From Betaproteobacteria bacterium HGW-Betaproteobacteria-16 (GTDB taxonomy: Bacteria; Pseudomonadota; Gammaproteobacteria; Burkholderiales; Burkholderiaceae_C): a stretch of 64,000 nt of DNA. Both the position numbers and the translations under genes were made by a program. Shown in pieces: positions 12,837 to 43,759 of the stretch; positions within the stretch are counted from its first letter, which is position 1, and each line of letters begins with the position of its first letter. The stretch lies in the NCBI GenBank assembly GCA_002840835.1, contig PHCQ01000001.1, forward strand, positions 124,001-188,000. The letters run 5' to 3'. The notes beneath the pieces are model-generated. The model worked only from the letters and a program-made list of their open reading frames with translations, searched no databases and had not been told where the DNA came from.

Positions 12837-13450
12837 TTGTGATTTCCTTTTGATGTCGGCGGCGGCAGGTTTCAGGCCACCGCGGCGAAGTGAGGGGCAA
12901 GGCACATTTCCGCTCCCCAGCCGATCCCTACGCATGCCAGCGGGCCACCTGGACGGACTCGGGGGTTTGACAGAGAACGGGCTGGATGCATGGAATTTCT
13001 GAGAAGGGATCAGACAGCTTGATGCCCGACTATATCCGTACTTGCTGATATTCGGATTAGAGTTAACCCGAATATGGACGTCGAATCGGCAGAAAAACGG
13101 ATGCAAGAATCTTGGGCGCATCGTGCGGGCTCCGGGCCACTGCCGTGTCGACTTCCAGCGCTGGCTACCTTGCGATGCCATGGAAAGCCGGCTGAAGCAG
13201 CGCTAGGGTTTTCACCGTGCGATGCATCCGGGTGCGATGCTAGGATGAAACATCTACATATGCGTAAGCACTAATGTTTAGCAGCGTGGGAGCCCTCCCC
13301 CGCAGATGGTTGCAGGAAGCGAAAGTGACAACTGCGCACCCATGGGTGCAAAAGCGCGGCTTCACCTGCAGCTTGAATGCGGGACAGAACACCAGGGCCT
13401 CTGCTACAGTTTTCGATGGTGTCAGTTCAACCCCTCTTCTGGAGACAACA
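12837..13450. other. Divergent sox/sulfide dehydrogenase control region
   Basis: About 610 bases without a convincing gene. The region separates soxC (minus) from the sulfide dehydrogenase genes (plus) and must hold their promoters. A palindrome at 13048-13075 and a minus-strand -10 box at 13029 are annotated separately. Small open frames here lack ribosome sites and recognisable products. No sox regulator gene is seen. Confidence 0.6.
13029..13075 (-). promoter_or_regulatory. Candidate sox promoter and operator palindrome
   Basis: On the minus strand a TATAGT box (13034-13029) is a likely -10 element. Upstream lies a perfect inverted repeat, ATATTCGG at 13048-13055 and CCGAATAT at 13068-13075, with a 12-base spacer. 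Its proximal arm covers the expected -35 position, where the sequence is a poor match to TTGACA. This geometry fits a repressor site, for example for an ArsR-type sulfur regulator, but no regulator is encoded in the window. Confidence 0.5.
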
Positions 13451-41627: not shown

Positions 41628-42512
<885 letters not shown>

Positions 42513-42560: not shown

Positions 42561-42728
42561 CTAGTGTGCTGTCCCTGAAACAGTTGCATGAAATGAAACC
42601 GATGGATTCGCGCCCAGGGCAAGGCGCAAACCGCAGCGATAGCCTGAGCTGTCGCGAGGATTTGTAACGCAGCCATGGGTGTGAAGGCACGGTTTCATAT
42701 GCAAGTTATTTGCGGGACAGCACACTAG
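42561..42728. mobile_element. MITE-like element flanked by CTAG
   Basis: A 168-base segment bounded by perfect inverted repeats, CTAGTGTGCTGTCCC at 42561-42575 and its reverse complement at 42714-42728. The similarity extends inward with gaps to about 40 bases, ending in ATGAAACCG/CGGTTTCAT. The outer CTAG on both ends could be a target-site duplication. No transposase is encoded, so it would need to be moved by an element elsewhere. The right end provides the stop codon of gpsA. Confidence 0.8.
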
Positions 42729-43759
42729 AGCGCTTCCTGCTTCGGATCGCGCCCCATCAGCACGGCCAGCGCCTGCGCCGGCTGGAGTCGCCCCTCCAGC
42801 AGCTCCACCACAGCCTCGCTGATCGGCATGTCCACGCCCAGCAGGCGCGCGCGCTGCACCACGGTTTGTGCGCTGTAAACACCTTCGGCCACATGGCCCA
42901 ATGAGTCCACCGCCTGCCTCAAGGTGAGCCCTTGCGCCAACAGCTGACCGACGCGCCGGTTGCGAGAGAGGTCGCCTGTGGCGGTCAACACCAGATCACC
43001 CAGGCCGGACAGCCCCATGAAGGTGTCGGCGCGCGCACCCAGCGCCAGGCCCAGCCGGGTCATTTCTGCCAGCCCCCGGGTGATCAGGGCCGCCCGGGCA
43101 TTCAATCCGAGCTTCAGACCATCGCAAAGGCCGGTGGCAATGGCCAGCACGTTCTTGACGGCCCCGCCCACTTCCACGCCCACCAGATCTTCGTTGCCGT
43201 ACACCCGCAAGGCCGGACCATGAAACGCCGTCACCAGCGCTTCACGCACACTGGCATGCTCACTGGCAGCCACCAGCGCGGTCGGCTGACCCAGCGCCAC
43301 TTCCTGCGCGAAACTGGGGCCACTGAGCACACCCGCCTTGAGCAGCGGTGCCACGCGTGCCTGAATCTCGTGGCCCAGCAGCCCCACGGGCTGGTCCGGC
43401 CCCTGAGGCGACTCGAACCCTTTGCAAAGCCAGGCGACGGGACCGGGGTGTTCGCGCAGCCCGGTCAACACGGCGCGCAGACCGGCCATGGGCGTGCCAA
43501 CGATCACCAGATCGTCTGGCCCAAGCCGCTGCATGACCACGCCGGACACGGCTTCCAGGGGCACGGCTTCAACGATCAGATCTTGAGGAAAAGCCCCCCC
43601 CGGGAGATAGCGGCGGTTTTCGCGCACCGCCTGCATGTCCTGGAACTGGGCAGTGTCGCGCGCCCAGAGGCTCACTTCACGATCAGCACCTGCCAGACGG
43701 GCGGCACTGACCGCCAGCGCAGTCCCCCAGGCTCCCGCGCCGAGCACAACGATCTTCAT
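42725..43759 (-). CDS. gpsA: Glycerol-3-phosphate dehydrogenase [NAD(P)+]
   Basis: A 344-residue enzyme making glycerol 3-phosphate for phospholipids. The NAD-binding motif is [14 protein letters not shown], followed by [32 protein letters not shown] and the catalytic region [18 protein letters not shown]. It is the last gene of the rhodanese-grxC-secB-gpsA group. Its TAG stop (42725-42727) is inside the terminal repeat of the MITE-like element, so the last few codons may differ from the ancestral ending. Confidence 0.95.

Follow-up and report, generated by a model that had tools for sequence, protein, structure and literature searches.

A MITE with IS630-like ends and a widely distributed hairpin core at the gpsA stop codon of a Burkholderiaceae_C bacterium

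Results

The window, a stretch of 64,000 nucleotides, contains two convergent neighbours that were identified from the ORF list and by Pfam: panC, encoding pantoate-beta-alanine ligase (41646..42512, + strand), and gpsA, encoding NAD-dependent glycerol-3-phosphate dehydrogenase (42725..43759, - strand). Between them, and reaching into the gpsA stop codon, lies a segment of 168 bp (42561..42728, both CTAG sites included) whose terminal inverted repeats are perfect over 15 bases (CTAGTGTGCTGTCCC). The left repeat (42561..42575, + strand) includes the C-TA of the target; the right repeat occupies 42714..42728 (- strand), and over its outer ~30 bp it is similar to IS630-family ends. A repeat search gave 20 nt at 90%. 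The sole overlapping frame in a list of ORFs of at least 100 amino acids was gpsA, which agrees with the description of a non-coding segment with perfect 15-base ends in the initial annotation. The repeats had also been said to extend imperfectly to about 40 bases; inverted pairing was found there, but instead of stopping near 40 bases it spanned the whole element. Folding gave a full-length imperfect hairpin of -94.8 kcal/mol on the + strand (z -10.4, equalled by 0 of 200 shuffles), with z scores of -9.8 for the - strand in the shuffle test and -9.6 when DNA parameters were used.

The CTAG on either side had been read as a target duplication. CTAG was present at both ends, but a 4-bp duplication is unnecessary and a 2-bp duplication of TA fits, because 7 of the 37 elements with the same ends sit at CTAA, TTAG or TTAA sites (the framing of two rows, L120 and L170, is probably wrong). 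TA target duplication is established for the IS630 family. End typing on this basis places the left TA at 42562..42563 and the right TA, which provides the gpsA stop codon with its T and A, at 42726..42727, and leaves a mobile body, GT...AC, of 162 bp (42564..42725). In the two CTAGs, the inner G and C are element bases and the outer C and G are target bases. Being short and non-coding, with terminal inverted repeats, a target duplication and dispersed copies, the segment is a MITE.

We compared the gpsA junction with those of relatives. The TAG stop codon (42725..42727, - strand) lies inside the right CTAG, as initially annotated. The further suggestion that the insertion had altered the end of gpsA was not borne out and was rejected for G028 (L415) and G011 (L401), where gpsA ends in CTC TAG, as it does in the window, at an unoccupied CTAG; in G011 the gene adjoining gpsA is not panC. 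Because the homologous CTAG is unoccupied and the ending is the same in these two relatives, the stop codon most likely existed before the insertion and was regenerated by it. With TA duplicated, its T and A are target bases and its final G is the terminal base of the element, so that the letter is unchanged. Natural CTAG stops of gpsA also occur in L040, L042, L043 and L055; the gpsA of the closest proteins (L034 and L035) ends four codons later and is uninformative on the origin of the stop. The element was absent in nine distinct relatives whose junctions were aligned (10 rows, L413 and L035 being one contig) and from the 260 bases shown at each of 19 gpsA loci.

The own genome, which is Hydrogenophaga-like, carries five full-length copies on five contigs, with 92-100% identity over 165-168 bases; the assembly comprises 232 contigs with 6.26% contamination. 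In one copy (L004) the outer part of the right end is lost. Two full-length copies were found in G015 and a nearly full-length copy in G035. The 168-bp element was matched in 12 of 60 genomes (own included, E ≤ 0.001), mostly via the middle of the element alone, and on 3 of 72,556 plasmid records, again in the middle only; there were 0 matches among 50,697 phage records. The copies at unrelated sites, the absence from the gpsA of relatives and the IS630-family elements with the same ends described below support the original reading of a mobile element. A segment held at one place in all relatives and lacking other copies would have pointed to a fixed local structure, and this is not the distribution that we found.

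Fragments were also seen. At 13381-13395 of the window (- strand), together with ~60 adjoining bases, lies a decayed half of a family-A element, with the end CTGGTGTTCTGTCCC and arm-like sequence. Elsewhere in the own genome, a single end, CTAGTGTGCTGTCCCG, lies at C96:40181 (L022 1501-1515) with neither a partner nor a core.

We searched for insertion sequences with the same ends, as had been proposed. Allowing up to two mismatches, the own genome contains CTAGTGTGCTGTCCC 14 times, 9 times as an end of one of the five copies; the reversed control gave 12. No pair of CTAGTGTGCTGTCCC-like ends in the own genome encloses an insertion sequence, and an autonomous IS630 element with these ends was not found there. 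The only DDE_3 gene of the own genome is 40% identical to a Methylibium transposase; its locus is without such ends, and it was rejected as the mobiliser. A 39-base arm query matched three plasmid records at E 0.04, one of them from Cupriavidus; the other two, plasmids of Pandoraea faecigallinarum and Methylibium petroleiphilum, carry IS630-family transposases between CTAGTGTSCTGTCCC-like ends. With the Methylibium transposase as query, matches at 1e-20 were obtained in 15 of 60 genomes. G009 contains a complete element of 1167 bp with ends CTAGTGTCCTGTCCCG and a transposase 92% identical to the Methylibium protein, and G001 contains complete 1167-bp elements (73% identity) in three copies with identical ends, also CTAGTGTCCTGTCCCG, at three sites. 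These ends are the same as those of copy L005 of the MITE. The insertion sequences sought thus exist in G009, in G001 and on plasmids; in the genome search neither G001 nor G009 gave a MITE match. Since IS630-family elements share the ends and Pfam identified DDE_3 domains in the transposases, the outer parts of the MITE are, by sequence, IS630-type. An IS481-type reading of the CTAG was dropped once the IS630 partner was found. We infer that the MITE is moved in trans by a transposase whose ends it carries.

On a Cupriavidus plasmid (L334 2501-3503), IS630-type ends lie ~1 kb apart with no annotated transposase between them and a third end inside.

The middle 58 nt of the element (42618..42675, + strand; G000:C38:166618-166675) match many loci whose outer arms differ. 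A covariance model of this core hairpin, R1, was built from 20 rows and scored the present core at 79.4 bits. At E ≤ 1e-4 and with the own genome included, R1 cores were found in 93 of 150 genomes of the family, representing 89 of 141 genera (in several genomes of this family-wide search the best 37 candidates were scored), in 28 of 120 genomes of the order, in 19 of 143 of the class and in 6 of 150 of the phylum. Cores number 30-31 in the own genome. R1 found no core in any of the 80 gpsA loci of relatives. Cores often lie at contig ends, as on contigs of G206 and on C19, C64, C74 and C170 of the own genome; because the repeats seem to break assemblies in this way, copy numbers are probably underestimated. 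At L206, L207, L244, L278-L289 and L322, two cores lie ~104 bp apart, mostly in opposite orientation.

The covarying stems were examined in two alignments. In the alignment of 102 rows, which was fitted to R1, 94.7% of the cells were paired versus 77.2% in shuffled alignments, 17 of 19 pairs were changed on both sides, and covariation was 0.421 versus 0.126; slid versions of the structure were 28-44% paired. In the unfitted 20-row alignment, 93.2% of the cells were paired versus 81.7%, and the corresponding count of pairs was 11 of 19. Unpaired positions such as A5, G7, C8, A59 and A60 were kept in 96-99 of 101 distinct rows. On the AAGGCGC strand, G-U cells outnumbered A-C cells (37 vs 20), and this excess, together with the better folding of that strand, hints at one active single strand. 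Conservation relative to the arms differed between families: in family A the pairwise difference was 0.065 in the core vs 0.042-0.129 in the arms, the core being no better kept, and in family V it was 0.055 vs 0.085-0.114, the core being better kept. Rfam gave nothing above the gathering score in 16 loci, the best sub-threshold matches being unrelated. At 13 loci with autonomous elements or related ends, R1 gave just two matches, of 13.5 and 12.4 bits (E 0.29 and 0.54).

We then typed the ends around the cores. A total of 229 core positions was considered, with second head-to-head cores and L322 omitted and L137 and L177 counted as one place. Strict rules typed 73 of them: 37 have GT..AC bodies between TA, 22 have GA..TC bodies next to TNA, and 14 have GG..CC bodies next to YTAR. 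The other 156, some of which have mutated ends or short flanks, were untyped under these rules. All three end classes, which are mutually incompatible, are present in the own genome. In the TNA class the middle base is equal on both sides in 17 of 22 elements. The body is 158-162 bp long in 70 of the 73 typed elements, within a search restricted to arm lengths of ~44-70 and ~38-64 nt.

Partners of the YTAR class were found at L360 (G072, ~1.19 kb) and L374 (G025, ~1.18 kb), with ends CTAGGGCAACGCTGATTAAGTCC and CTAGGGCTACGCTGAACAAGTCC. Both have CTAG outside, GGCAACGCTGA-like ends and DDE_Tnp_1 transposases, and their ends match the MITE ends GGCAACGCTGAACAAGTCC. For two end classes there are therefore autonomous elements with matching ends, and their transposase domains, DDE_3 in one case and DDE_Tnp_1 in the other, are unrelated. 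We take the YTAR and TNA classes to be IS5-type, where the analysis itself shows DDE_Tnp_1 (PF01609) alone. A short DDE_Tnp_1 element, L367, has ~10 end bases in common with L169, a weak match. For the commonest TNA ends (types V and VI; TNA followed by GAGGCTGAGAG, and GAACTTGTCCG), no insertion sequence was found among the best plasmid matches, nor was one found at type IV ends on plasmids (including H28) or in record H10; the partner of type IV came from the genomes. Across the end classes, the middle would be the lasting part of the element and the ends would be exchangeable, their exchange being inferred.

We determined where the typed elements had inserted. Among those with long flanks, a stop codon was present in the duplicated target in 21 of 35 (TA class, 7 of 18; TNA class, 11 of 14; YTAR class, 3 of 3). 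At other occurrences of these motifs in the loci concerned, a gene's stop was present in 22 of 869 cases, and in 29 of 238 when sites outside gene interiors were considered (odds ratio 10.8, Fisher p 2e-9); genes were called from GC at codon positions, with a slightly different definition for elements and background sites. Location in a stop codon is thus the rule among typed elements. Purging of insertions inside genes is insufficient to account for all of this enrichment, to which purging at promoters may add. The gene with the occupied stop reads into the core strand opposite to the AAGGCGC strand in 16 of 21 cases (two of these 16 elements have genes on both sides) and solely into the AAGGCGC strand in 5 of 21. 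Eight elements with TNA followed by GAGGCTGAGAG (L012, L016, L019, L131, L132, L135, L136 and L168) have one orientation relative to the gene, and all lie in stops.

The core motif CAAGGC..GCAACG has a likeness to the Correia repeat of Neisseria. The Correia consensus matched a gonococcal record at 97.4%. One gonococcal record of 2.17 Mb, NZ_CP119140.1, is filed as a plasmid and has the size of a chromosome. The inner segment of CREE/NEMIS, CAAGGCG..CGCAG..AGG..GCAACG, resembles the core of the present element. CREE end in the 26-bp Correia repeat (TATAGTGGATTAA), whereas the present element has the ends CTAGTGTGCTGTCCC, so that it is not a CREE and is at most a relative of the CREE core. CREE are described as having TA-type ends, lengths of 104-157 bp and >120 copies in gonococcal genomes (PMC2649163).

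Comparisons were made in both directions. The long CREE differs in having an internal insertion, and R1 gave it 8.5 bits (E 0.084); R1 found no match on the CREE loci L419-L421 and L431. A search of 300 genomes of the order, which took the best 2 candidates per genome, matched 12 in all; in 8 of these, belonging to 7 other genera, CREE residues ~26-61 lie under other ends. In G186 and G208, CREE-like residues and R1 cores are both present. R1 matched four CREE-like hairpins at E 0.002-0.005. A second model, R2, was made of 12 CREE-like hairpins, one row being from the CREE-bearing genus, and contains only 4 base pairs; it matched gonococcal CREE at up to 79.3 bits. When R2 was run on 42 core loci together with 14 gpsA loci, 28 matches reached E ≤ 0.1: 19 on first R1 cores, 3 on second cores, 1 at a likely second core, 1 on the CREE-like element of L052 and 4 elsewhere; 23 of the 42 first R1 cores were unmatched at this threshold. 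Compared with the 102 R1 cores, the short gonococcal CREE core gave z 6.7, reached by 0 of 300 shuffles; among the CREE-like rows, 8 of 12 were reached by no shuffle, and 4 of 12 were reached by 2-13 of 200. These likenesses suggest that common descent of the core and the CREE is likely.

Discussion

The element at the gpsA stop codon is highly probably a non-autonomous element composed of IS630-derived ends and a core inherited from an old superfamily. Its outer part, ~15-30 bp per end, would have been copied from IS630-family insertion sequences, and an IS630 transposase would cut and paste it in trans at CTAG (YTAR) sites, duplicating TA. Its inner part, the asymmetric 58-nt core with the inner arms, would have come down from the superfamily, other members of which would carry IS5-type or other ends with 3 or 4 bp duplicated, the core and the ~160-bp body being kept. 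How ends might be exchanged is a guess: once one arm has gained a new end, template switching in the long hairpin could duplicate it on the opposite arm. We think that the core serves the mobility of the element, either as a hairpin of the single strand or as a site for a host factor, and not the host.

Insertion into the stop of a gene would be harmless, because the targets (TA in CTAG, TNA and YTAR) read as stops and the duplication rewrites the target. A stop-like target that is then copied would give a mobile element a simple route to harmlessness.

We considered whether the core might be a functional RNA selected by the host, a hairpin for 3'-UTR processing or stability comparable to CREE transcripts processed by RNase III. 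Strong covariation, conserved unpaired residues, the location of core elements directly after stop codons and the excess of G-U over A-C noted above for the AAGGCGC strand would all be expected of such an RNA, and binding of CREE transcripts by RNase III is described (PMC2649163). However, genes with an occupied stop enter the other strand in 16 of 21 cases, which speaks against a role in 3'-UTRs; in addition, the 16 loci gave no Rfam family at the gathering score, and family-A cores are kept no better than their arms. We regard an RNA of this kind as unlikely.

An attC site is an asymmetric hairpin of which one strand is used. By analogy with such sites or with REPs, the core could be a single-stranded DNA substrate for recombination or transposition by a dedicated enzyme, the ends being secondary. 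The unpaired A5, G7, C8, C18, A19, A59, A60 and G62 are invariant or nearly so, one strand folds better, and the size is constant across different ends, as this proposal would predict. However, an extra enzyme is not needed for movement, because the ends match known insertion sequences, whose families typically show target duplications of these kinds; a dedicated enzyme thus appears distinctly unlikely.

It is very unlikely that the element is an ordinary IS630-derived MITE that has lost its middle, with the core as a functionless filler that is common by descent. The match of the ends to IS630-family elements over ~30 bp and the family-A cores, no better conserved than the arms, are in keeping with such an origin. 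However, the core covaries across genera, it also occurs in elements whose ends fit unrelated transposases, and it does not appear to be an internal piece of an insertion sequence in the loci examined, because the two R1 matches at the 13 loci with autonomous elements or related ends were non-significant. A conserved structure local to the gpsA-panC junction, such as a bidirectional terminator, would suit a strong hairpin between convergent genes but is extremely improbable and was rejected as the origin of the segment, given the copies at unrelated places and the absence from the gpsA 3' side in nine distinct relatives and, by R1, from all 80 gpsA loci.

The composite element of IS630-derived ends and inherited core can be compared with known systems. 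REP/BIME sequences with their RAYT transposases are likewise multicopy intergenic palindromes; the present element differs in its 162-bp body, IS630-type ends and target duplications. REPs are given as 20-40 bp (PMC3733652). The RUP of pneumococcus, with IS630-Spn1, is also small and non-autonomous and has IS630-like ends and a TA duplication (PMC2229807). The present element differs from RUP in that its core also occurs under the ends of other transposase families, in its constant body length and in its concentration in stop codons. ERIC, RPE and other palindromic repeats are similarly ~100-200 bp long, with stem-loop transcripts and often TA ends; a common core over different end types is not described for them in the passages of PMC2229807 consulted, and in this respect the description sets them apart. 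Searches of the open-licence literature found neither an account of the core or of ends being exchanged nor a transposon paper with these ends. The element is a MITE of unusual organisation. MITEs are usually viewed as wrecks of one insertion sequence in which only the ends count; here it is the middle that would last, and the core would be a module that parasitises several unrelated transposases.

More broadly, we lean toward a history in which an ancient core survived across Beta- and Gammaproteobacteria by changing between IS630-type, IS5-type and other ends, with Correia elements as one branch. That the body has always stayed at ~160 bp, and has mostly been placed inside stops repaired by the insertion itself, is part of this reading and is held with the same modest preference. 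If it is true, Correia elements, so far regarded as restricted to one genus and as lacking a known origin, would be one branch of the core superfamily, and these elements, whose mobiliser has been stated to be unknown, would gain an ancestry beyond Neisseria that can be tested.

In Acidovorax sp. A1169 (L052 3511-3612), a CREE-like element with ends TACGGATTTGC lies in the TGA stop of gpsA, with TGA on both sides.
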